A stretch of 37,459 bases of DNA from Syntrophaceae bacterium (GTDB lineage: Bacteria > Desulfobacterota > Syntrophia > Syntrophales > Smithellaceae). The stretch is from contig JAFGLS010000161.1 of assembly GCA_016927935.1 (NCBI GenBank), positions 1 to 37,459 of the forward strand, written 5' to 3'. A program made the position numbers and the translations under genes. The notes under the pieces are model-generated. The model had not been told where the DNA came from, did no database searches, and saw nothing but the letters and a program-made list of their open reading frames with translations. This document shows, in pieces, positions 4,981 to 35,480 of this stretch. How positions within the stretch are numbered: position 1 is the first letter of the stretch; every line of letters begins with the position of its first letter.

Positions 4981-6360
4981 ATGAAAATATTGAAAACTTA
5001 TATGAAAAAAGAACGTTTTGTTAAAATCGGCTCAGCCAAATCCAATGATGAACAAAACATCATTTTGGATTCCATTGCTGACGGAGTATTCACCGTGAAT
5101 AAGGATTGGCGGATAACTTCATTTAATAGTGCTGCGGAAAAGGTCACCGGTGTATCACGCCGTGAAGCCATCGGTCAGTTGTGCAAGGATGTCCTCAAAG
5201 CGGATATTTGCGAGAGAAACTGCTGTTTAAGAGCCACTATGAAAAACGGCAAACAAATCATCAATAAAAAAGTACATATCATCAATGCGGAAGGACGCAA
5301 ATTACCGATCAGCATTTCCACTGCGCTCTTGCGTGACAAAAAAGGAAATTTGCTGGGTGCCGTGGAGACCTTCCGTGATATCAGCATTGAGGAAGATTTA
5401 CGCAAGGTCATTTTCCAAAAATACAATTTTGCCGACATTATATCGAAGAACCACAAAATGCTTCAGCTATTTGACATGATTCCGGACATCGCCGACGGTG
5501 GAAGCACTGTTTTGATAGAAGGCGAAAGCGGCACAGGCAAAGAACTTATCGCCCGTGCGATACACAATCTGAGTCCCCGCAAGAAAGCTCCTTTCATTGC
5601 AGTTAACTGCAGTGCCTTACCTGATACCCTGCTGGAATCGGAACTTTTCGGTTATAAAGCGGGTGCATTCACTGACGCGAAGAAAGATAAGCCGGGCAGA
5701 TTCAAATTAGCGGAGAATGGAACATTGTTTCTTGATGAAATCGGGGAAATAACGCCTTCCATGCAGGTAAAGCTTCTGCGTGTTTTACAGGAGAAAACTT
5801 ATGAGCCTCTCGGTGGAACGCAGAGTATTCAGCATAATGTGCGGATCATTGCAGCAACAAATAAAAATCTGGAAGAAATGGTCAAAGAAGGTCGTTTCCG
5901 GGAAGATTTGTTTTACCGCATAAATGTATTTAAAATCAGCCTGCCGCCGCTGCGTGAACGTATGGAAGACATTCCTCTTTTGATTGGTCACTTTATAAAT
6001 TACTTCAACGCTCTGCAAAAAAAGAATATTGAAGGTGTCGATGAAGAAACAATGTCCGTCTTGATGAGTTACCATTATCCCGGCAATATCAGGGAACTGG
6101 CTAATATTATTGAGAGGGCTTTCATCCTTTGCAAAACAGGAATAATTGAGAAAAAACATCTTCCAGATTCTCTCTTTGCCAGTCCAGCAAAAGACAGCAA
6201 AAAAGAGGCAGAATCTCTTCGTGATGTTGAATATATTTACCTGACCAACATCCTTAAACAAAATAACTGGGACTGCCCTAAAGCGGCTAGGCAACTGGGC
6301 ATTCACAAAAGCACTCTTTACCGAAAAATCAAATCTCTCGGAATAACGATGTCCGAGTAA
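4981..6360 (+). CDS. sigma54-dependent activator (PAS-AAA+-Fis), probable regulator of the ORP-like island
   Basis: Enhancer-binding protein of 459 residues. A PAS sensor domain (about 25-140) contains a cysteine cluster C77-x3-C81-C82 (ADICERNCCLRATM), suggesting redox or metal sensing. The AAA+ domain has Walker A GESGTGKE at 181, a GAFTDA loop at 228-233 (variant of GAFTGA, the sigma54 contact), Walker B TLFLDEIGE, and RFREDLFYRINVF. A Fis-type HTH is at the C-terminus (CPKAARQLGIHKSTLYRKI). No response-regulator receiver domain is present. It lies directly upstream of a sigma54 promoter and two palindromic sites. Arrangement matches, from memory, the DVU2106 regulator of Desulfovibrio ORP operons. 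ATG 4981 lacks a clear Shine-Dalgarno; ATG 5002 is an alternative start. Confidence 0.93.
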   Translation: MKILKTYMKKERFVKIGSAKSNDEQNIILDSIADGVFTVNKDWRITSFNSAAEKVTGVSRREAIGQLCKDVLKADICERNCCLRATMKNGKQIINKKVHIINAEGRKLPISISTALLRDKKGNLLGAVETFRDISIEEDLRKVIFQKYNFADIISKNHKMLQLFDMIPDIADGGSTVLIEGESGTGKELIARAIHNLSPRKKAPFIAVNCSALPDTLLESELFGYKAGAFTDAKKDKPGRFKLAENGTLFLDEIGEITPSMQVKLLRVLQEKTYEPLGGTQSIQHNVRIIAATNKNLEEMVKEGRFREDLFYRINVFKISLPPLRERMEDIPLLIGHFINYFNALQKKNIEGVDEETMSVLMSYHYPGNIRELANIIERAFILCKTGIIEKKHLPDSLFASPAKDSKKEAESLRDVEYIYLTNILKQNNWDCPKAARQLGIHKSTLYRKIKSLGITMSE

Positions 6361-21701: not shown

Positions 21702-22016
21702 ATGCCGGAATTTGGAACACCTTTTTCAGGATTGACAAAGGACAGGAACCTCACTAAAGAAGAACTTATCAGAGCCATTCGTTTCATGGTGGCAGCGGAG
21801 TATGAGGCAATTCAACTTTACATGCAACTTGCGGAGTCAACAGACAACAGGCTGGCCATAGAAGTGCTTAAAGATATCGCTGATGAGGAACGCGTTCACG
21901 CCGGTGAGTTTTTGAGACTGCTTCATGAGCTTGCCCCCGACGAGAAAAAACTCTATTCCGAAGGAGCAAAAGAAGTAGAGGAAGAAATCAGAAAGATTAA
22001 GAAATTAGAAAAATGA
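21702..22016 (+). CDS. ferritin-like/rubrerythrin-like short protein
   Basis: A 104-residue two-helix ferritin-like protein: LTKEELIRAIRFMVAAEYEAIQLYMQLAE and VLKDIADEERVHAGEFLRLLHEL. Candidate iron ligands are E33, E62/E63 and H66. Being half the usual four-helix bundle, it would have to dimerise to build a di-iron site, as encapsulated ferritins do. No encapsulin is present in the window. AAAGGAGG precedes ATG. It is next to two peroxiredoxins, suggesting an oxidative-stress role. Confidence 0.85.
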   Translation: MPEFGTPFSGLTKDRNLTKEELIRAIRFMVAAEYEAIQLYMQLAESTDNRLAIEVLKDIADEERVHAGEFLRLLHELAPDEKKLYSEGAKEVEEEIRKIKKLEK

Positions 22017-22058: not shown

Positions 22059-22784
22059 ATGCCTGAAGAAATTAAAGCCGGATGCGCCAGGCCCACCGGC
22101 GGACCGGTCGGTGAAAAACCGGAAGCAAAAAAAGAGACGTCTCAACAAACACCTGTAAAGGAGGTCAAAAATATGGTTACAGCAGGAAAGAAAGCGCCTG
22201 ACTTCACGGCGCCCGCGTATCACAAGGGCAAATTCATCTCCGTGAAACTGTCCGAATATCTGGGCAAATGGGTTGTTTTATGTTTCTATCCCGGAGATTT
22301 TACATTCGTCTGAGCTACCGAAATCTCGACGGTCGCCGAGAAATATCCAGAATTCAAAAAACTGGGCGTGGAAGTTTTATCCATGAGCGTGGACAGCGTT
22401 TTTGTCCACAAGATGTGGAACGATCACGAGCTATCCAAAATGGTCAAAGGTGGCATTCCCTTCCCCATGCTCTCCGACGGAGGCGGCAAGGTTGGAGATG
22501 TCTTTGGCGTTTACCTTCAGGATGCCGGTGTCGAGGCACGCGGACGGTTCATCATCGATCCCGATGGAATCATCCAGGGATTTGAAGTTCTTACACCTCC
22601 TGTCGGACGCAACGTTAATGAAAGTATCCGGCAGATTCAGGCCTTCCAGCATGTCCGCAACAGCAAGGGAACCGAAGCCACTCCTTCAGGATGGCGTCCC
22701 GGAAAACCAACTCTCAAACCCGGCCCGAATCTTGTCGGCAAGGTCTGGGAAGTCTGGAAAACAAAGATGGCGTTTGACGACTAA
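22059..22784 (+). CDS. prxU: selenocysteine-containing peroxiredoxin (PrxU type); UGA at 22311-22313 = Sec85
   Basis: A 241-residue peroxiredoxin read through an in-frame TGA. Before it stands [13 protein letters not shown] and [17 protein letters not shown]; after it comes [20 protein letters not shown], so the TGA occupies exactly the peroxidatic Cys of the family (FTFVC-x-TE). Homology on both sides is in one frame. A SECIS-like hairpin follows (22324-22341). No Cys follows Sec; C9 in AGCARPTGG and C78 are the only cysteines. Two starts each have a perfect Shine-Dalgarno: ATG 22059 (AAAGGAGG) and ATG 22173 (AAAGGAGGTC), so two forms are possible. PrxU is a known selenoprotein family of anaerobes. 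Confidence 0.93.
22311..22341 (+). promoter_or_regulatory. SECIS-like element of prxU
   Basis: After UGA (22311-22313) a 5-bp stem TCTCG (22324-22328) and CGAGA (22337-22341) closes an 8-nt loop ACGGTCGC. The loop GG lies 18-19 nt after the UGA, within the 16-37 nt window known for bacterial SECIS elements. Confidence 0.65.
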
Positions 22785-24848: not shown

Positions 24849-25976
24849 ATGAGTCATCTTGAAAAACCATCTTTAGGGAATGATTCGGACGTATTAAAAA
24901 ACCGTGAAACGTCTATAAGCAATCTTTATCAAAAGTCGATTCACAAAAAAATTATTTTGTTTGCTGCTCTGCTGCTCACCCTGCTGGTTTTGATCGTTTA
25001 TGCTATTATGGTGGGTCATTACGACATGTCCATACGTAGAATCATCGAAACGTTATTGGGATGTAACGCCGGTACGGAAAATATCGTGGTTTGGAATATT
25101 AGGATGCCCCGAATTATGGCGGCAATCGTTACCGGTTGCGCCCTTGGATTGTCCGGTGTTGCCATGCAAAGCCTTTTAAGAAATCCCCTGGCTTCGCCTT
25201 CCACCTTAGGCGTCAGTCATGGAGCCGCGTTTGGCGCATCCTTTTCCATTGTTTTTCTTGGCGCGGGCATTACACACGGCAACAATATTATAATAACCGG
25301 TGAAGAAGGGTTGATATTTAAAAACGTTTATCTGGTTACTTTATGCGCGTTTGGGGGCGCTATGATTGCCACGATCGTCATCCTTTTACTGGCCAGACTC
25401 AAAAAAATGTCTCCGGAATCCATTATCTTGGCCGGCATAGCCATGTCTTCCTTGTTCACGTCGGGAACGATTCTTATACAATACGTTGCTTCTGAAGTGG
25501 AAATCGCTTCGGTGGTTTTCTGGACATTCGGCGATGTTGCCCGTTCCAATTGGACAGAAATAGGTTTTTTAATTGTAGTCACTTTGGGGGTTATGGTTTA
25601 TTTCATTTTTGTCAGATGGGATCTTAACGCAGTTTCCGCCGGCGAAGATACGGCACAATCATTGGGAGTAAAGGTGGAACGCTTTCGCTTGTGGGGCATG
25701 CTTCTGGCGTCGCTCGTGGCGTCTCTAGCTACGGCTCTGCATGGCGTGATCGCCTTTCTTGGATTACTGGCCCCGCATATCGGACGCCGTTTAATAGGAG
25801 CCGATCATCGTTTCCTTGTTCCTTATTCATGTCTGATTGGTGCGTTGCTGTTACTGCTTGCCGATACCGTCGGTCGTTTCATCGTCGGTTCGGGAACATT
25901 GCCGGTGGGAGTGTTGACATCCTTTATGGGCGCCCCTCTTTTCCTTTATCTGCTGATTCGGGGATTAAAAAAATGA
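24849..25976 (+). CDS. FecCD-type ABC permease (iron chelate/cobalamin/molybdate-type)
   Basis: A 375-residue inner-membrane permease of the BtuC/FecCD family with about ten helices. Markers: RMPRIMAAIVTGCALGLSGVAMQSLLRNPLASPSTLGVSHGAAFG (about 84-128), VSAGEDTAQSLGV (about 266), FLGLLAPHIGRRLIGADHRFLVPYS, and the C-terminal GTLPVGVLTSFMGAPLFLYLL. An N-terminal cytoplasmic extension of about 35 residues is unusual. GGAG precedes ATG 24849. Its stop overlaps the ATPase start by ATGA. Substrate is open: siderophore, cobalamin, haem or oxyanion (MolBC are of this fold). Confidence 0.94.
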   Translation: MSHLEKPSLGNDSDVLKNRETSISNLYQKSIHKKIILFAALLLTLLVLIVYAIMVGHYDMSIRRIIETLLGCNAGTENIVVWNIRMPRIMAAIVTGCALGLSGVAMQSLLRNPLASPSTLGVSHGAAFGASFSIVFLGAGITHGNNIIITGEEGLIFKNVYLVTLCAFGGAMIATIVILLLARLKKMSPESIILAGIAMSSLFTSGTILIQYVASEVEIASVVFWTFGDVARSNWTEIGFLIVVTLGVMVYFIFVRWDLNAVSAGEDTAQSLGVKVERFRLWGMLLASLVASLATALHGVIAFLGLLAPHIGRRLIGADHRFLVPYSCLIGALLLLLADTVGRFIVGSGTLPVGVLTSFMGAPLFLYLLIRGLKK

Positions 25977-26734
25977 TACTAAAAGTTGACGGGCTGGAAT
26001 TTTCTTATTACGAAACTCCTATTTTGAAAAATATAGGATTTGAACTCAAGAAAGGTCAGATCACGGCAATATTGGGTATAAACGGAGCGGGAAAGACCAC
26101 CTTGCTCAAATGCTTGAATCGGATTCTTCACCCGAGGGAAGGAACTGTTTTTCTGAATGAAGAAAATGTCAAAAACATGAGCAGGAATCATATCGCCAAG
26201 CATTTCGCCTATGTTCCGCAAAACTACGAAGAAGAGCATTTGACCGTATTTGATGCCGTTTTGCTGGGTCGAAAGCCTTATATCAAATGGGAAGCCACTG
26301 CCCGGGATTTAAGCATTGTTGAGGCCATCCTCTTCCGTCTGAATATCGAACATCTCGCTCTCAGGCCTATTAATCAATTAAGCGGCGGAGAGATGCAAAA
26401 GGTTGTCATTGCCAGAGCGTTTGCGCAGGAACCGGAGGTTCTTCTTATGGACGAACCAACGAGTAATCTGGATTTAAAAAATCAACTCCAAGTTATGCAA
26501 TTAATCCGTAAAGCCGTCCGTGAGCATGATATGGCAGCCATTGTTTCTATGCATGATATTAACCTGGCTTTTCGATTCGCAGATTATTTTTTAATGCTTC
26601 GGGAAGGTCGGATTTATATATCAGCTTCCCAAAAAGAGATAACCGCGGAAGACATTGCGCAGGTTTATGGGGTAAAGGTGATTCTTGGGGAAATGAATCA
26701 TTATAAGATTGTCATACCAATAGACGAAAATTGA
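25973..26734 (+). CDS. ABC transporter ATPase (FecE/BtuD type)
   Basis: A 253-residue ATP-binding subunit. Walker A GINGAGKTTLLK (about 36-47), Q-loop FAYVPQNYEEEH, signature LSGGEMQKVVIARAF, Walker B VLLMDEPTSNLDL, H-loop AAIVSMHDINLAF. ATG 25973 overlaps the permease stop; an upstream in-frame start inside the permease is rejected. It is followed after 13 bp by the binding-protein gene. Confidence 0.95.
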   Translation: MILKVDGLEFSYYETPILKNIGFELKKGQITAILGINGAGKTTLLKCLNRILHPREGTVFLNEENVKNMSRNHIAKHFAYVPQNYEEEHLTVFDAVLLGRKPYIKWEATARDLSIVEAILFRLNIEHLALRPINQLSGGEMQKVVIARAFAQEPEVLLMDEPTSNLDLKNQLQVMQLIRKAVREHDMAAIVSMHDINLAFRFADYFLMLREGRIYISASQKEITAEDIAQVYGVKVILGEMNHYKIVIPIDEN

Positions 26735-26747
26735 TAAGGAGCATATT

Positions 26748-27851
26748 TTGAAAACATTAAGAAATTTATTAACCGTTTTTTTAGTTTTGGTTTTTATCAT
26801 CTTGATAGATTTGCATCCGTGTTTGGCGGGAGAAATGATCGAGATTACGGATATGACCGGCAGACAGGTTTCGGTTATCAAAAATCCGGACAGAATTATC
26901 TGCTTGGGAACAGGAACCATGCGGTTGATTGTTTATCTTCAATCGCAACATAAAATCATTGGGATAGAGGATTATGAAAATCGATTTCCTTTAGGGCGGC
27001 CTTATTGGATGGCGCGTGGCGGTGATTTGGCCCATTTACCTTCCATCGGACCCGGTGGTCCTGGTGCAATTAACAAAGAACCGGATTTGGAAAAAGTTCT
27101 GGCGGTTAAACCGGACGTTATCTTTATTACCTATCTGGATCGTGACAAAGCCGATGCCCTGCAAAAAAAGATCGGCATTCCGGTGGTCGTTTTAACCTAT
27201 GGTACGTTTGGAACGTTTGATGAGAAGATATATGAATCCATGCGTCTTTGCGGGAGAATTCTTGATCAACAGGACCGGGCTGAAGCCGTTATCCGTTTCA
27301 TTGAAAATTCCCGAAAGGATCTTTTGAAAAGAGTTGCAAAAATCCCTAAAACGAAAAAACCGTTCGTGTATATTGGAGGCATAGGGTTCCGCGGCGCCCA
27401 TGGTATTGAGAGCACGGAAACGGAATATATTCCTTTTGAATGGGTCAAAGCCAAACACGTTGCCAAACAAGGTGCTCAAAAAGGTCATATTTTCTTAGAT
27501 AAGGAAAAAATTCTGAGTTGTAATCCTGATATTATCTTTCTCGATGGCGGCGGCAATGAACTGATCCGTCAGGATTATGCAAAAAAAACATCTTTTTATC
27601 AAGCGCTTGGAGCATTTAAAAACAAAAAGGTATATATGCTCTATGCCTTCAATTCCTATATGACCAACATCGAGACCGTTATTGTTGATACGTATGCCGT
27701 GGGTAAAATTATTTATCCTGAAAATTTTAAGGACGTTAAAATGGATGAAAAGGCGGATGAAGTATATTCGTTTTTTCTTGGACGCCCGATTTATAAAAAA
27801 ATGGAAAAAACTTATGGGAAGATCGGAGAAAATCCTTCTTATTTACAATAA
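26748..27851 (+). CDS. periplasmic substrate-binding protein of the FecCD-type importer
   Basis: A 367-residue class III (TroA/BtuF-like, PF01497) binding protein with a Sec signal peptide (about 1-26, ending PCLAG). Core: MIEITDMTGRQVSVIKNPDRIICLG, IVYLQSQHKIIGIEDYENR, VLAVKPDVIFITYLD, and a C-terminal lobe with NPDIIFLDGGGN. The GGIGFRGAHGIEST motif is typical of binding proteins whose substrate is not a classic siderophore. TTG 26748 has AAGGAGC upstream. Molybdate or tungstate is possible given the adjacent molybdopterin-protein remnant, but this is conjecture. Confidence 0.9.
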   Translation: MKTLRNLLTVFLVLVFIILIDLHPCLAGEMIEITDMTGRQVSVIKNPDRIICLGTGTMRLIVYLQSQHKIIGIEDYENRFPLGRPYWMARGGDLAHLPSIGPGGPGAINKEPDLEKVLAVKPDVIFITYLDRDKADALQKKIGIPVVVLTYGTFGTFDEKIYESMRLCGRILDQQDRAEAVIRFIENSRKDLLKRVAKIPKTKKPFVYIGGIGFRGAHGIESTETEYIPFEWVKAKHVAKQGAQKGHIFLDKEKILSCNPDIIFLDGGGNELIRQDYAKKTSFYQALGAFKNKKVYMLYAFNSYMTNIETVIVDTYAVGKIIYPENFKDVKMDEKADEVYSFFLGRPIYKKMEKTYGKIGENPSYLQ

Positions 27852-28053: not shown

Positions 28054-28647
28054 TTATTCTCCAATTTCTTCTCGTCCGGTAATCATCGCCATAGTATATG
28101 ACAATGGAGTTTTCCCAGTAGTTGTCATATAGATATGTATCACCAGAAAGATAAGCATCAAAAATGCGCTGATCGTATGGATAATTGCGAACGTTTCAAA
28201 AGATATGGATAATCCCATAATCTGAAGTTCATTATAAAAAAAGCAAACCAGCCCGCTGATTATAAGAACCGGTAGTATAAATAACAGAATAGACAGGTAG
28301 CTGAGCCTCTGTAACGGGTTTAATTTTGCTTCAGGAGTTTTCTTATAGGGATGCGGTTCATCATAAAATATACCTATCAGGTAGCAGTGTATTACTTTAT
28401 CGATATCTTTTAGTGTGGGAATATATTGCCTCCACTCGCGGGTGCATATGTGCCAGATAATAGCAAAAATGGTTACTATTATCAGTATCCAAGCGGCCAG
28501 CGCGTGCATTTCATAGGTATTTTTATATCCGAATATTTCGTAAGTTCCGTGTAGTTCAAAACCGGTTAGCAGAAGAAAAATGATAAGAGCCGCCTGTAAC
28601 CAGTGCCATAATCTTTCAGTGCCTTTGTACATTATAACTTGTTTCAT
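28054..28647 (-). CDS. membrane cytochrome b (cytochrome b561/formate-dehydrogenase gamma-like)
   Basis: A 197-residue integral membrane dihaem cytochrome b (PF01292-like). Four helices are visible. Candidate haem histidines lie at H15 (ERLWHWLQ), in the EMHALAAWI helix, and in the AIIHTISAFLMLIFLVIHIYM helix, the usual pattern. A charged cytoplasmic loop (about 70-110) is rich in Lys/Pro (EPHPYKKTPEAKLNP). Its ATG is 1 bp from the octahaem cytochrome stop, so the two form a quinone-linked redox pair: cytochrome b takes electrons from quinol in the membrane and passes them to, or receives them from, the periplasmic cytochrome. Confidence 0.9.
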   Translation of the reverse strand: MKQVIMYKGTERLWHWLQAALIIFLLLTGFELHGTYEIFGYKNTYEMHALAAWILIIVTIFAIIWHICTREWRQYIPTLKDIDKVIHCYLIGIFYDEPHPYKKTPEAKLNPLQRLSYLSILLFILPVLIISGLVCFFYNELQIMGLSISFETFAIIHTISAFLMLIFLVIHIYMTTTGKTPLSYTMAMITGREEIGE

Positions 28648-28648
28648 T

Positions 28649-30265
28649 TTACTTTCTCCTTTTTAACCGAAAAATTATACGTCCAAAACCATGTGCCAAT
28701 ACACCAATGATTGTAAGAATCAATAAAGACCACCCAATTTTATCGAGCCATATAACACGATCACGTCCCGGCAGGTAGAAGCCGGCAACACTGGCGAGTC
28801 GCCCGTCACGAGCGTGGCAGACTGCACATTTAAGTGAGTTTTCTTTGGGGGCTACCATGTGAGTGACCGGCCAGTACATTACTGTATCAACAAAGCCTAT
28901 TTTCCCACTGAATTTTTCTCCGGATTCAGTCATGCCGATTTCCACAGACCTTTGCCAGTCGTAATCCGACCAGTAGGCTCCGCTTCCTTTGGGGCCAAAC
29001 AGTTTGCTTATCACCAAACGGTTGGCTTGGGCATCATAAACCTGACTTCCTTGGAAATATTTGAACGGGAAAATTCTTGCTTCTGGATCATTATAATCAC
29101 CCAGAGGTTGGTTAATTTTGACCGGACGTTCATCCGGCAGAGTGTCTTTCATGGTTGTATATTTCATCGCGCCATTATACCAGGCATAAATTGGGGTTAC
29201 ATTTTTTTCCCAGGTCATGTCCCCTTTCATTGTGTGATAAGTCGGTCTGCCGTCAGCATCTTTTTTTTCAATCGGTTTTTTATCATCCGTGAATTTTCCT
29301 GCAGTTGACCAATCCCACCGCATCATGGTGCTCACTTTACCCCGCGCGAAACTCGGGATGTGGCATGCCTGACAGGAGACTTTGTCAGTATGGTCATTGA
29401 GCTTGGCTGAGTCTTTATGAGGCGTAGCTCCGTGACAAGACTCACAGGAAAGATGGCTTCCCAGAGCTGTTGCTTGACGATTTAATGAAGCGCGCTGTTT
29501 ATAGTATCTACCTGATATTTCGTGATTTATTGTTGTATGACAGTCGGTGCAGGTAAAGTTCGCACCTTCTTTGGACATATGAACGTCCAAATCTCTTTTG
29601 GCCGAAAAGATGGAAGAATTCAAGTCCCCGTGCTTAACCCCATCACCGCCACCGCCATAGAAATGACAGGTGCCGCAATTTTTCAAACTGGTTTTCCCAA
29701 CCGTCTTGGCCGAAACATTAAGGTTAACGGGGCTAAATGTCTTTCCTCCGAAATTTTTCTCCGTATAAGCCGGATGACCACAGTCAGTTGGAAACTTCTT
29801 ATATTGACCTGAATGATCATGACACACAAGACAATCAATGTTTTTTTCAACCGTGAAATCAAAACTCTCATCTTTCCAACCATAACCGGAATGACAGCTG
29901 GTGCACCTGCACCAGTTCGTACGCGGAGATAGTCAAAAGTTGTTTATAATACGGGCTTTACCCATTCCCTCCTTCCCCATTTTGTCCAATCCCCAGGTCC
30001 AGTGGTAAGTATTTTGCACTTGTTTTGCAGCTTCAGTGTGGCAGGAAAGACATGCCTTGGTTGCATCAGGTCCTTGTTTCATAGGTTGATTAAGAATTCC
30101 AAATTTGCTGTGATCTGCAGTCGGTTTGGAAACAACCGGCAACTTCTGAGTATCAGATTTATTTGAATCCGAAACTGCCCAGCATACAAACGTAAACAAG
30201 ATTAATGACAAGCAGGCGATAACAATGCATATCTTTACGTAAATTTTGAATTTCCTTTTAATCAT
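28649..30265 (-). CDS. octahaem c-type cytochrome (tetrathionate reductase family) with in-frame UGA at 29933-29935 (candidate Sec111)
   Basis: A 538-residue periplasmic cytochrome when TGA is read through. Eight CxxCH haem sites: ACLSCH, RCTSCH, DCLVCH, NCGTCH, TCTDCH, SCESCH, SCQACH, KCAVCH; one before and seven after the TGA. N-terminal signal/anchor (9-30) and C-terminal membrane helix with KRRK. The DGVK motif (D208, K211 in GGGGDGVKHGD) is where the tetrathionate reductase family has its lysine haem ligand. In family members the TGA position is Cys (NNFC-x). The TGA lies in INNF-TGA-LSPR, three residues after Asn108. A SECIS-like hairpin follows. GGAGG precedes ATG 30265. If TGA were a stop the product would carry one haem. 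Confidence 0.85.
29898..29935 (-). promoter_or_regulatory. SECIS-like element of the octahaem cytochrome
   Basis: On the coding strand the hairpin CTGGTGCAGGTGCACCAG (29915 down to 29898) has a 7-bp perfect stem CTGGTGC/GCACCAG closing an AGGT loop. The GG starts 26 nt after the UGA (29935-29933). Stem top and loop closely resemble the apical part of the E. coli fdhF SECIS (GC-AGGTCT-GC). This is the strongest of the three. Confidence 0.8.
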
Positions 30266-30529: not shown

Positions 30530-31855
30530 ATGGGAAAAAAAATATATAATTTATTCTCCTCTGTAAAACTTACAGTAATTCTTTTTCTTGTAATTGCCGT
30601 TAGCTCAATTTTGGGCACTTTCATAGAACAGGGTTTGACGCCTGAAAAATATAAGATAATATTCGGTAAAACAGCATTTCATGTCCTAAATTTTTTCAAT
30701 GTTTTTGATCTTTACCATTCCTGGTGGTTTACATTTCTTTTGCTTTTATTATCTGTAAACCTCATTTCATGTACCTTAAAACAACTTCCCCATATAGCCG
30801 ATATAACCTTTAAGGCAAAACAAAAAATCGACTATTCCAGGTTTAGTGCACCGCAGATCATTGAAACACTGCACTCTCAGAAAAACCTGTCGGTCATTGA
30901 ACAAAAGGTGATTTTATTTCTACAATCCATTTCTAGTTCTTTAATACGGGTAAATAAAAATGGTGTCTCTTATTTCTTTGCGGAAAAAGGCAAGTTTTCC
31001 AGGTGGGGAATGACTCTGGTACACTGCAGCGTGCTTTTCATACTTGGAGGCGGACTAATCGGGGCTATATGGGGATTCAGCGGCCAGATGAATTTGGTCG
31101 AAGGTGGGCAATCCGACTCTGTATATTTATTCGGAAATGAAGGCATAAAGAAACTGGGGTTTTATGTTGCCTGTAATGATTTTTCGGTAAAGTATTATGA
31201 AACCGGAACTCCGAAAGAATACAAAACCAACCTGACAATAATAAATAATGATAAAGAAGTCTTAAAAAGCGTGATCAGGGTAAATCATCCTTTGACTTAT
31301 AAAGGGTTTAAATTCTCTCAGGCATCTTTTGGTCTTGCCGGAGCTTACAATTTTAAAGTCAAAGTAATAAATAACATTACAAAAGAGGAAAAATTCTTAA
31401 CGGTGGATATGATGAACAAAGTCCCCGTTTCCGGGAACGATCTGTCTTTTGCCGTAGCCAGATTTGATTCTGATTACATGGGTCAGGGGCCTGCGGTGCT
31501 TGGTGTTTTAATCCGGCCGGGAAAACAACACGACATATTTTGGCTGCCGAAAAACTCGTCAATGCAGAGAGACAATTATGTTTTTACCTTGAAAAATTTT
31601 GATACCGTCTATTATTCCGGCATACAGGTTAATAAAGACCCTGGAGTTATCCTCGTTTGGATCGGATTTATCCTGATTATTGTTGGATTTATATTAAGTA
31701 TTTTTTTTGAACACATAAGAATATGGATTCGCATATCAAGGGATAAGGAAGGATATGAAATTTCTATTGCAGCTAATACCAGCAAAAATAAAAATGCCTT
31801 TAAGGAAAAAATAAACATAATGATTGCAGAATATCTGCAAGGTGAAACATCATGA
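30530..31855 (+). CDS. resB: cytochrome c biogenesis protein ResB/Ccs1
   Basis: A 441-residue membrane protein of system II cytochrome c maturation. The ResB N-terminus is recognisable: LFSSVKLTVILFLVIAVSSILGTFIEQG, then WWFTFLLLLLSVNLISCTL, a third helix MTLVHCSVLFILGGGLIGAIWG, a large periplasmic domain (about 180-370) and a fourth helix VILVWIGFILIIVGFILSIFFEH. With CcsA it carries haem across the membrane and joins it to apocytochrome. ATG 30530 lacks a strong ribosome site; no better start is visible. Overlaps ccsA by ATGA. Placed next to an eight-haem client gene. Confidence 0.92.
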   Translation: MGKKIYNLFSSVKLTVILFLVIAVSSILGTFIEQGLTPEKYKIIFGKTAFHVLNFFNVFDLYHSWWFTFLLLLLSVNLISCTLKQLPHIADITFKAKQKIDYSRFSAPQIIETLHSQKNLSVIEQKVILFLQSISSSLIRVNKNGVSYFFAEKGKFSRWGMTLVHCSVLFILGGGLIGAIWGFSGQMNLVEGGQSDSVYLFGNEGIKKLGFYVACNDFSVKYYETGTPKEYKTNLTIINNDKEVLKSVIRVNHPLTYKGFKFSQASFGLAGAYNFKVKVINNITKEEKFLTVDMMNKVPVSGNDLSFAVARFDSDYMGQGPAVLGVLIRPGKQHDIFWLPKNSSMQRDNYVFTLKNFDTVYYSGIQVNKDPGVILVWIGFILIIVGFILSIFFEHIRIWIRISRDKEGYEISIAANTSKNKNAFKEKINIMIAEYLQGETS

Positions 31856-32679
31856 ATGACGCATTTTTTATTAGCATAGTAACGTTTATTTATTTTCTTT
31901 CGTCTTTTATCTTTCTTATTTCTGTTGTTTTTCATAAAGTTACAGTGGAAAAGATAGCAACAGGTATTGCCTTTGGCGGTCTTATGCTCCATTCACTGGC
32001 GTTAATTATCCGATGGGTGCATTCGTATCAGTTAGGAATAGGCCATGCCCCTTTGTCAAATTTTTATGAATCTCTTGTCTTTTTTTCCTGGTCAATCGTC
32101 TTTATTTTCTTGATCATAAGAAAAAAATATAAAAACAATCTTATAAGCATGCTTTCTGTCTTTTTTGCTTTTTTAATACTGGCTTATGTATCTTTATCCG
32201 GTACTATTGATTGCCAAATTCAACCGTTGATTCCTGCATTGCAAAGCAACTGGCTTATAAGCCATGTGATTAGCTCTTTTCTCGCATATGGATGTTTTGC
32301 TATCGCGTTCGGCTTGAGCATTCTTTACCTTTTGAAAAAATTGACTAATAAAAATATCGTTAAGCTATTGCCGGACACGACTTTTCTGGACGAAGTAACT
32401 TATAAGATCATATCCATTGGATTTGTGTTGTTAACACTTGGGATAATAACGGGTGCCGCTTGGGCCGACCGCGCATGGGGAAGATACTGGGGATGGGACC
32501 CTAAGGAAACCTGGTCATTGATAACATGGTTTATTTACGGCGCCTTTCTTCATGCCCGCCTTGCGATGGGATGGAAAGGCATTAGAATGTCATTGATCTC
32601 AATATTGGGTTTTGCCTGTGTTATCTTTACTTACCTTGGAGTTAATTATATTCTTGCCGGCCTCCACAGCTACCTGTAA
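31852..32679 (+). CDS. ccsA: cytochrome c biogenesis protein CcsA/ResC
   Basis: A 275-residue polytopic protein with about eight helices. The haem-handling WWD motif is present as WGRYWGWDPKETWSLITW (about 209-226), and conserved histidines are HSLALIIRWVHSY, SHVISSFLAYG and the C-terminal AFLHARL. It forms the cytochrome c synthetase with ResB. ATGA overlap with resB means the two are co-translated. Membrane location, haem-binding face outward. Confidence 0.94.
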   Translation: MNDAFFISIVTFIYFLSSFIFLISVVFHKVTVEKIATGIAFGGLMLHSLALIIRWVHSYQLGIGHAPLSNFYESLVFFSWSIVFIFLIIRKKYKNNLISMLSVFFAFLILAYVSLSGTIDCQIQPLIPALQSNWLISHVISSFLAYGCFAIAFGLSILYLLKKLTNKNIVKLLPDTTFLDEVTYKIISIGFVLLTLGIITGAAWADRAWGRYWGWDPKETWSLITWFIYGAFLHARLAMGWKGIRMSLISILGFACVIFTYLGVNYILAGLHSYL

Positions 32680-33057: not shown

Positions 33058-34764
33058 TTATATTATCAGATTTAATAATCCTCCCGTTACTAAAGCTGCT
33101 GTAACCATTATAGTAGCTGATTTGAGCATGTTGATCACGCCAAGTTCTCTCAGGAGAACGACAAAGGTGGCTATACAGGGAAAAAACATGGCTAAAACCA
33201 CACACCCTACCACCAACTGTTTGGCCGTAAGCGCCAGAGGCGCCAGCATACCTACTGCCACATCTTTCCGCAGAAAACCAACAACCAAAGCGGTTACCGC
33301 CTCTTTTGGAAGACCAAGAACCCCATTAACCACGGGTGCCGTAAAATCGGCAATGGCTTCAAATACTCCCAGGAAAAATAACACATTAACCAACAAAATA
33401 GCCCCAAGAATCATGGGAACGGCTTCCATCAAAAAGCCGCGCGTTCTCATCCATAGCTTTTGCAGTGTCGCTTTCCACGGTGGCCAACGATATGGCGGTA
33501 TTTCAATAAGCAATTCCGGTGTGAAACCCTTTACGGCCTGACGAATTATTAAACCCAACACCATCCATACCACAAAAAGAGTGCCATAAACTATAGCTAC
33601 ATATTTCCATCCGTATGAGCCCAACAATCCGAAAATCATTGCCTGCAACGCGGCGCAGGGTATGGCAATGGAAATTAGCGTAGCGGCAATGAACCGTTCC
33701 CGCTTGCTTTCCAAAATCCTGGTGGACAAAATAGCCGGAACATTACAACCAAAACCCAGCAAAGTCGGAATTATCGCATAACCATGCAACCCCAATCGAT
33801 GCATGAAGGTATCCGCAAGAATGGCCAAACGCGGCAGGTAACCTGTATCCTCTAGCACACCGAGAACCAGATAAAATGAAATGATATAGGGCAGAACCAT
33901 GGCAAAGGGAACATAGAAACCACTGGATAAAAGACCAAAGGACTGGACAAAATCAACCTTACCTTCAATCAATGTACCGATCAGAATATTATGAAGAAAA
34001 ACTTTCCCTCCCAAAAGAACGCTAAAACTGGTCAACACCGGCGTCCAACAATTCTCAAAAAAGGGATCGAATACATAACTAATAAGTGTTTCACCGATAA
34101 AGCGAATGACAATAAAGGCCATTGCAAGAACAACCAATGCAATAATTGCCCCGGAAAAAGAACGGACACTCGCATCCGCCAGACGTTCGGAAAAGGTGTG
34201 ATGTCGATGGGTAACCTGTTGTACTTGCTCGATAATTTTCCCAACAGCAATCCAGCGCTCCTCATGACTGCGAGCTGGTATTTCAAGCGATACAGCTTTC
34301 GGTATATTTTCAACCAGTGTCTTAATCCCCTCACCTGTTGTGGCAACGGTCGGAATTACAGGGACACCTAATATCCTTAGCAGTGCGTCCAAATCAATGT
34401 TTATTCCCTGGTGGCGGGTATCATCCCACATGTTTAAAGCAACAATCAATTTAACTTTTCTTTCTAGCAGTTGCAGTGTCAGATATAGATTTCTTTCCAG
34501 ATTCGTGGCATTGACGACATTGATGATTACGTCTCCGGAATCAATCATCCGCAAGGCGACTTCTTCGGCTTCACAGGTCGGTTCTAAAGTATATGTTCCG
34601 GGAACATCAATAACTTCAACTTGATCTTCACCAAGTTTCATAGAACCTTGGGTATAACTTACCGTTGTACCTGTATAATTGGATGTAATGACATGTACAC
34701 CGGTCAATCGGGAGAAAAGAACACTTTTGCCCACATTGGGATTACCCATCAATAATATTCTCAT
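33058..34764 (-). CDS. feoB: ferrous iron transporter FeoB (short form)
   Basis: A 568-residue GTPase-membrane protein for Fe2+ uptake. G-domain motifs: G1 GNPNVGKS (7-14), G3 DVPGTY, G4 NMWD. The membrane part has the two Gate-type repeats (GYLPRLAILADTFMHRLGLHGYAIIPTLLGFGCNVPAI and TALVVGFLRKDVAVGML). It is about 100 residues shorter than typical E. coli-type FeoB, mainly in the linker between G domain and membrane core. ATG 34764 overlaps the feoA stop (34761) by ATGA. Confidence 0.95.
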   Translation of the reverse strand: MRILLMGNPNVGKSVLFSRLTGVHVITSNYTGTTVSYTQGSMKLGEDQVEVIDVPGTYTLEPTCEAEEVALRMIDSGDVIINVVNATNLERNLYLTLQLLERKVKLIVALNMWDDTRHQGINIDLDALLRILGVPVIPTVATTGEGIKTLVENIPKAVSLEIPARSHEERWIAVGKIIEQVQQVTHRHHTFSERLADASVRSFSGAIIALVVLAMAFIVIRFIGETLISYVFDPFFENCWTPVLTSFSVLLGGKVFLHNILIGTLIEGKVDFVQSFGLLSSGFYVPFAMVLPYIISFYLVLGVLEDTGYLPRLAILADTFMHRLGLHGYAIIPTLLGFGCNVPAILSTRILESKRERFIAATLISIAIPCAALQAMIFGLLGSYGWKYVAIVYGTLFVVWMVLGLIIRQAVKGFTPELLIEIPPYRWPPWKATLQKLWMRTRGFLMEAVPMILGAILLVNVLFFLGVFEAIADFTAPVVNGVLGLPKEAVTALVVGFLRKDVAVGMLAPLALTAKQLVVGCVVLAMFFPCIATFVVLLRELGVINMLKSATIMVTAALVTGGLLNLII

Positions 34765-35006
34765 GGGGAAGAATCCTCAACCGCAACTAATATTCTTTCC
34801 GCCATACCGAAACCTATGGCTATTTGAACTCTATTCACTTCGACAGTTACCGGACCTCCCATAGCTCCGGCACTGAGCTTTTTTATAATGCTCCCCGGTC
34901 TTATATCCAAAGCCGCCAACCGGCTGACCATCCTATGTCCACCATCAATTTGGGTTATTTTTCCACTTTCACCGGATTTCAAATCTTTAAGAATTTTTAT
35001 CTTCAC
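34761..35006 (-). CDS. feoA: FeoA family protein
   Basis: An 81-residue SH3-like protein that supports FeoB. Core: LKSGESGKITQIDGGHRMVSRLAALDIRPGS and MGGPVTVEVNRVQIAIGFGMAERILV, the family pattern. GTG 35006 is the likely start, with GAGGA 5-6 bp upstream; a TTG at 35027 would add seven residues without a good ribosome site. It is 48 bp behind fur and overlaps feoB. Confidence 0.93.
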   Translation of the reverse strand: MKIKILKDLKSGESGKITQIDGGHRMVSRLAALDIRPGSIIKKLSAGAMGGPVTVEVNRVQIAIGFGMAERILVAVEDSSP

Positions 35007-35054
35007 ATCATCCTCTTTTCTGACCAATCATTTTTTATAACCAACATTATATAA

Positions 35055-35480
35055 TTATTTCTTATCATTTTTGCACCTAGAACAATAACCTTCCATCTTC
35101 AACTGAACGGAAGTAATATAAAAATTATTATTCCTTTGAATTATTTTTACAGCTTTGGCAACCAGCGGACTGTTAAATTCGATAATCCGTCCACAACTTA
35201 AACAGACCAGATGATGGTGTTCTGCCGCTTCTTTAATTTCATAATGGGAATGAGTTTCGCCAAGATTGCTCTCCGAAATGAGGCCGAGATCCTTGAATAG
35301 TTTCAGATTACGGTACACGGTTGCCAAACTGATGCGCTTATTCCTCTTTTTTGCCAGCCGATACAACTCATCGGCATCGAGATGTTTATTGGCCTTTTTA
35401 ATAACTTCCAGAAGTAAGCTACGCTGATTGGTTGTCGGTCTACCTATTATTTGATCGCTTTTTTTGCGAATAGTTATCAT
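35055..35480 (-). CDS. fur: Fur family metalloregulator
   Basis: A 141-residue Fur/PerR-type repressor. Winged-helix DNA-binding part with ISLATVYRNLKLFKDLGL (50-67), regulatory metal site HHH at 88-90 and E81, structural zinc cysteines C93/C96 (CLSCG) and C133/C136 (CSRC). It heads the feoA-feoB operon, so it most likely senses Fe2+ and controls its own operon. PerR or Zur specificity cannot be excluded by sequence alone. Confidence 0.92.
   Translation of the reverse strand: MITIRKKSDQIIGRPTTNQRSLLLEVIKKANKHLDADELYRLAKKRNKRISLATVYRNLKLFKDLGLISESNLGETHSHYEIKEAAEHHHLVCLSCGRIIEFNSPLVAKAVKIIQRNNNFYITSVQLKMEGYCSRCKNDKK

Follow-up and report, generated by a model that had tools for sequence, protein, structure and literature searches.

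The octahaem tetrathionate reductase (OTR) of Shewanella oneidensis, whose structure is available as 1SP3, has an active-site haem that is ligated by a lysine located outside any CxxCK motif (PMC12285233). In TsdA, a cysteine attacks tetrathionate to give an S-thiosulfonate, from which electrons of the haem release thiosulfate (PMC5146829). Selenocysteine (Sec) was predicted earlier in a multihaem cytochrome, the ExtKL protein of Geobacter (NF040886; PMC5877670, PMC13188914), and Table 1 of a review of May 2026 (PMC13188914) lists, as annotated in GenBank, a Tetrathionate reductase family octaheme c-type cytochrome (TIGR04315) with one Sec, WP_331457571.1, in an entry that gives no motif, SECIS, phylogeny, active-site placement or discussion. 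Tetrathionate is not mentioned in a 2022 review (PMC9312934).

The window analyzed here, a stretch of 37,459 nucleotides from a Syntrophaceae bacterium (contig JAFGLS010000161.1), carries a gene that very probably encodes an exported, selenoprotein version of OTR, a reading that takes the UGA decoding and the proposed catalysis together as one explanation. Its product shares with 1SP3 the fold, the eight haems and the NNFC/NNFU and DxxK motifs, with about 39% identity in the structural match, but 1SP3 has Cys64 rather than Sec, and the C-terminal membrane helix of the window protein has no counterpart in the crystallized chain (the match ends at window residue 491). WP_331457571.1 belongs to the same family and likewise has one Sec, as far as can be compared from its listing. 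ExtKL and the window protein are both predicted Sec-containing c-type multihaem cytochromes, and the ExtKL gene cluster also includes a b-type cytochrome, but ExtKL belongs to another family, has five haems and has a role linked to the reduction of selenite/tellurite. TsdA and SoxXA (PMC5146829) resemble what is proposed for the window protein in combining a haem with a sulfur nucleophile and a covalent thiosulfonate intermediate, whereas they belong to an unrelated family, use the Cys as haem ligand and have no selenium.

A first-pass annotation of this DNA had regarded selenium beside such a haem as new chemistry. This was overstated, since the family is listed in PMC13188914 and ExtKL had been predicted before (PMC5877670); the Sec form is thus not unprecedented and its novelty is limited. 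Apparently undescribed so far, in literature drawn largely from outside subscription journals, are the active-site placement, the SECIS, the repeated switching, the fossil SECIS and the distant subfamily with a Sec site of its own, and beyond PMC13188914 the same search yielded no paper meaningfully joining Sec with this octahaem family.

Gene structure, family and fold of the octahaem cytochrome

As the first-pass annotation had claimed, the gene forms one continuous frame with eight CxxCH motifs only if its in-frame TGA is translated (Table 1), and ordinary ORF calling splits it into ORFs of 110 and 392 aa. The joined 538-aa protein matched the full TIGR04315 model (positions 1-440) with 599.6 bits, against a curated cut-off of 375 bits, and a profile search matched its second half to PF11783. 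Its sole PDB relative by sequence was 1SP3, which was also the only significant match of the AlphaFold2 model (pLDDT 88.7) to solved structures (TM 0.88 by target, E 4e-46). Bit score, the eight CxxCH motifs, the aligned Lys, Asn and Asp residues and the OTR fold all place the window protein in TIGR04315, and the Cys usually found in this family at 1SP3 position 64, which is not a criterion of the model, is absent, TGA/Sec standing there instead. The AlphaFold2 model includes an N-terminal helix, predicted to be an export signal or anchor, and a C-terminal membrane-type helix (residues about 505-537).

Table 1. Features of the octahaem cytochrome locus (positions in the window)
Feature	Position	Strand	Remarks
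Cytochrome b561-type membrane subunit (PF01292; PhsC-like)	28054..28647	-	probable quinol-oxidizing partner
Sec-containing octahaem cytochrome c (TIGR04315)	28649..30265	-	538 aa + stop; Sec predicted
Haem motif 8 CAVCH (480-484)	28814..28828	-	
Haem motif 7 CQACH (298-302)	29360..29374	-	
Haem motif 6 CESCH (274-278)	29432..29446	-	
Haem motif 5 CTDCH (239-243)	29537..29551	-	
Lys211 (1SP3 K153)	29633..29635	-	invariant in 118/118 homologues; position of the OTR non-CxxCK Lys haem ligand
Asp208 (1SP3 D150)	29642..29644	-	mostly conserved
Haem motif 4 CGTCH (197-201)	29663..29677	-	
Haem motif 3 CLVCH (145-149)	29819..29833	-	
Haem motif 2 CTSCH (121-125)	29891..29905	-	
SECIS-like hairpin CTGGTGC-AGGT-GCACCAG, loop 29905-29908	29898..29915	-	7-bp stem, starts 17 nt after UGA
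Cys119	29909..29911	-	TGC codon inside SECIS stem
In-frame TGA, predicted Sec111	29933..29935	-	column of 1SP3 Cys64 by alignment
Asn108 (1SP3 N61)	29942..29944	-	invariant in 118/118 homologues
Haem motif 1 CLSCH (72-76)	30038..30052	-	
ResB-like gene	30530-31855	+	divergent; by sequence and place, no NCBIfam match
CcsB (TIGR03144)	31852-32679	+	divergent; cytochrome c maturation

Evidence for selenocysteine at codon 111

The codon at the Sec111 column was compared among the 119 non-redundant homologues of the alignment and tree set, and it was TGA in 37, TGC or TGT in 81 and ACT (Thr) in one. Cys therefore occupied this column in 81 of the 82 full-score homologues lacking TGA. 1SP3 has INNFC there, in agreement with the proposal that INNF-TGA in the window gene is the NNFC site of its relatives, and an in-frame UGA aligned with a Cys of homologues is one of the patterns by which bacterial selenoproteins are recognized. 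The 37 TGA-bearing genes span many genera, have frames and CxxCH motifs intact on both sides of the TGA and are free of further internal in-frame stops (the second TGA of L084 is its terminal stop). TGA at precisely one codon in 37 aligned genes is far beyond chance. Rather than sense codons followed by broken frames, the relatives within the clade of the window gene have TGA in 29 of 29 members, with intact downstream frames. This comparison, 37 TGA against 81 Cys at one column, was decisive, and UGA codon 111 is almost certainly decoded as Sec at the Cys64 column. The outcome of standard gene calling would also be that of a true stop, in a pseudogene, through a sequencing error or between two separate proteins, but the TGA at that exact codon of 37 genes from many genera with intact frames and haem motifs on both sides, together with the conservation of the hairpin codons described below, ruled this out and leaves it a probability close to nil. 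The Thr homologue (L152, genome G344) retains the active-site Asn and Lys, and a loss of the thiol step is possible in this protein.

In a survey of 395 genomes from the phylum of the window, 78 full-score TIGR04315 copies were listed and 31 of them had exactly one internal TGA, whereas in a control survey of 398 Pseudomonadota genomes none of the 54 full-score copies listed had one. Ordinary gene calling thus truncates a widespread respiratory cytochrome in the phylum of the window.

The first-pass annotation had made its reading depend on the presence of selA, selB, selC and selD, and all four were found in the genome of the window: selA (625 bits), selB (364 bits), tRNA-Sec (selC, 70 bits) and selD (387 bits), whose own reading frame includes a TGA (context AG-TGA-ACK). 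A tRNA-Sec of at least 58 bits was present in 33 of the 36 other genomes with a Sec-containing OTR, and draft gaps are the probable cause of finding none above 58 bits in the other three (G485, G169 and G223). Since most Cys-only genomes of the phylum carry tRNA-Sec too, this co-occurrence is uninformative inside the phylum, but it discriminates across phyla and for L026 (see below). TGA terminates 16 of the 41 listed window genes, so the genetic code is apparently standard. An open frame obtained by changing the code does not in itself show Sec, and the UGA might be read as Cys or Trp, by such a code or by readthrough, without selenium. Against this highly improbable reading stand the apparently standard code, selA, selB, selD and tRNA-Sec, the SECIS-like hairpin after the UGA and the in-frame UGA at known Sec positions in both PrxU (window) and SelD (genome); an altered code for the window genome was ruled out by the TGA stops and the sel genes. 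The PrxU peroxiredoxin gene (NF040737, 421 bits; 22059-22784, +) belongs to a known selenoprotein family and is the second selenoprotein gene of the window; its in-frame TGA (22311-22313) lies in the context FTFV-TGA-ATE, and ordinary ORF calling splits this gene too.

The SECIS-like hairpin and residue 119

By the sequence evidence, decoding of the UGA is directed by the hairpin directly downstream. The first-pass annotation had rightly noted a hairpin with an AGGT loop but had placed it 26 nt after the UGA, whereas the hairpin starts 17 nt and its loop 24 nt after the UGA. It had also called the element very like the SECIS of E. coli fdhF. When the fetched fdhF sequence (GGTTGCAGGTCTGCACC) was set against the window gene (CTGGTGCAGGTGCACCAG), a similar core was indeed shared (GGTnGCAGGT...GCACC), but fdhF has its loop, GGTC, 18 nt after the UGA, so that the spacing is longer in the window gene, where the bulged T is absent. 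The bacterial SECIS check that had been suggested was run with the bSECIS model (PMC13188914), which specifies a loop of 3-9 nt, a stem of 4-16 bp, G within the first two positions of the loop, a distance of 16-37 nt to the UGA and an energy of at most -7.5 kcal/mol, and the window hairpin satisfied it throughout (7-bp stem with loop AGGT, 24 nt from the UGA, -12.2 kcal/mol). An Rfam scan of the window gave no match.

In a test against synonymous recodings, hairpin energy gave a mean z of -1.0 for Sec genes and -0.1 for Cys genes, a difference that separates them as a group and not gene by gene, and the window gene had a fraction of 0.067. Per-gene energies are only modestly better than those of recodings because the hairpin is by now prescribed by the encoded amino acids. 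As energy is a weak discriminator for single genes, codon invariance was used as the evidence for a SECIS. The hairpin codons AAC TGG TGC AGG and ACC were identical in 29 of 29 main-clade Sec genes; the hairpin Arg was AGG in 100% of this clade, while the top codon at other conserved Arg positions reached 50% at most, and codons for these amino acids were mixed in other parts of the genes. The Cys sister clade showed no such invariance at the hairpin codons. In L023, L070, L071 and L111 a different hairpin, GCAACGA-GGC-TCGTTGC, lies about 20 nt after the UGA as a second SECIS type.

The hairpin apparently rewrote the protein at residue 119. Most Cys forms have Pro there and none of the 81 has Cys, whereas 33 of the 37 Sec forms have Cys and the other four, those with the second hairpin type, have Ala. 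Because its TGC codon is an element of the SECIS stem, the simplest reading is that Cys119 is a by-product; alternatively, it may be a resolving Cys for Sec111. This distribution, and a position eight residues past Sec111 that could suit a U-C pair, would also fit a Sec that is inserted but serves a structural, protective or redox-switch function (for example, a selenylsulfide with Cys119) instead of direct substrate catalysis. We consider such a function rather unlikely, since the Ala119 of four Sec forms indicates that a partner Cys is dispensable, the by-product reading accounts for Cys119, and the Sec column is a conserved Cys in non-Sec relatives, alongside the invariant N108 and K211. 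Direct catalysis by Sec111 is the reading pursued below.

Gene neighbourhood

Directly downstream of the cytochrome gene, almost every member of the wider clade, whether a Sec or a Cys form, has the b561 gene. Because it directly follows, the window protein is likely to be a quinol-linked periplasmic reductase with a selenium nucleophile, and a membrane-anchored, outward-facing, menaquinol-fed enzyme is the natural inference. The divergent ResB-like and CcsB pair would likely supply haem attachment, and such neighbours are also found in close relatives (L009, L010, L013 and partly L012).

Iron-uptake genes flank the cytochrome operon at 24849-27851 (+) and 33058-35480 (-), the set comprising a siderophore-type ABC transporter, FeoB with a FeoA-like gene and a Fur-family regulator. 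The window also encodes an EncB-family encapsulin ferritin-like cargo protein (NF058679, just above the cut-off) at 21702-22016 (+).

Active site and proposed mechanism

Sec111 is the likely nucleophile, as it replaces a conserved non-haem thiol adjoining Asn108. The roles given here to residues around the active haem, beyond lysine ligation, would follow from the alignment and from what Mowat et al. reportedly described in 2004. Retention of the Asp and Lys of the DGVK motif (D208 and K211), claimed by the first-pass annotation, was confirmed; across the homologues the Lys is invariant and the Asp mostly conserved. Its suggestion that Sec would replace the active-site thiol agrees with the 1SP3 alignment (C64, N61, D150 and K153, the Cys opposite Sec111 being residue 64 as numbered along that alignment) and with the known Lys ligation (PMC12285233). 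A literature search for Cys64 and Lys153 by name, with most subscription journals outside its scope, found none.

We hold with middling confidence a catalytic mechanism, built by analogy, in which Sec111 would be the nucleophile. After Sec insertion the chain would be exported, its eight haems would be loaded by a CcsBA-type apparatus, and the C-terminal helix would anchor the cytochrome beside the b561 partner, which would hand on electrons from menaquinol. The Sec111 selenolate, with Asn108 and Asp208, would then attack the S-S (or similar) bond of the substrate at the Lys-ligated haem, and electrons arriving through the haem chain would release the resulting Se-S (thiosulfonate-like) intermediate, as they do with the S-thiosulfonate on the Cys of TsdA (PMC5146829). 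Tetrathionate, polysulfide or nitrite might be guessed as substrates.

It is possible, if somewhat doubtful, that the Sec enzyme acts on nitrite/hydroxylamine or oxidizes thiosulfate instead of reducing tetrathionate/polysulfide. Shewanella OTR reduces both nitrite and hydroxylamine, according to the title of Atkinson et al. 2007 (cited in PMC8840924), and a related octahaem protein of orange Beggiatoaceae combines hydroxylamine/hydrazine oxidation with nitrite reduction (PMC6449678), whereas a thiol/selenol conserved at the active haem points to S-S chemistry and the b561 partner is similar to PhsC, a subunit of thiosulfate reductase, neither point being decisive. No dsrA was found in the window genome (91% complete), so the organism is not an obvious sulfate reducer and a role in sulfur respiration is without independent support. 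Selenium at position 111 would allow this likely catalytic residue to be followed specifically (75Se, Se EXAFS, 77Se).

Cys/Sec switching

Sec forms fell into four groups of the tree, a quick search with SH-aLRT support only: the window clade (29 rows, SH-aLRT 96), L071 with L111, L023 with L070, and L136, L137, L139 and L149 together. The Sec label requires at least five changes on this tree, four of them forced by starred branches, and the direction of each is unfixed. L026, from a Desulfatitalea MAG, is nested in the L023/L070 Sec group and has a Cys codon (TGT, 5070-5072) followed by the same hairpin as in that group, still intact, and its genome has no convincing tRNA-Sec (best about 45 bits). 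Most simply, L026 would be an apparent reversion from Sec to Cys that has kept a fossil SECIS.

A further independent Sec site is probably present in L155 (TGA 2113-2115, genome G210) and L156 (G320), members of a distant OTR-like octahaem subfamily (about 30% identity; 199 bits for L155 against TIGR04315), where the TGA aligns with a Cys of sister proteins (YTMC) and the HKHG lysine is kept. Their SECIS hairpin is less clear, and their first haem motif looks like CX4CH.

We tentatively suggest, at less than even confidence, that the Sec form is a distinct enzyme, in which a selenol at a Lys-ligated c-haem, through an Se-S or Se-Fe intermediate, would speed or redirect the reaction relative to Cys-OTR, S and Se having been switched several times, including in the L155 and L156 subfamily. 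This natural Sec/Cys series, with its switches, its fossil SECIS and some genomes holding both forms, lends itself to a comparison of S and Se at a haem active site. Cys and Sec octahaem copies occur in one genome in the cases of L068/L136 (G238), L069/L137 (G381) and L071/L139/L141 (G190).
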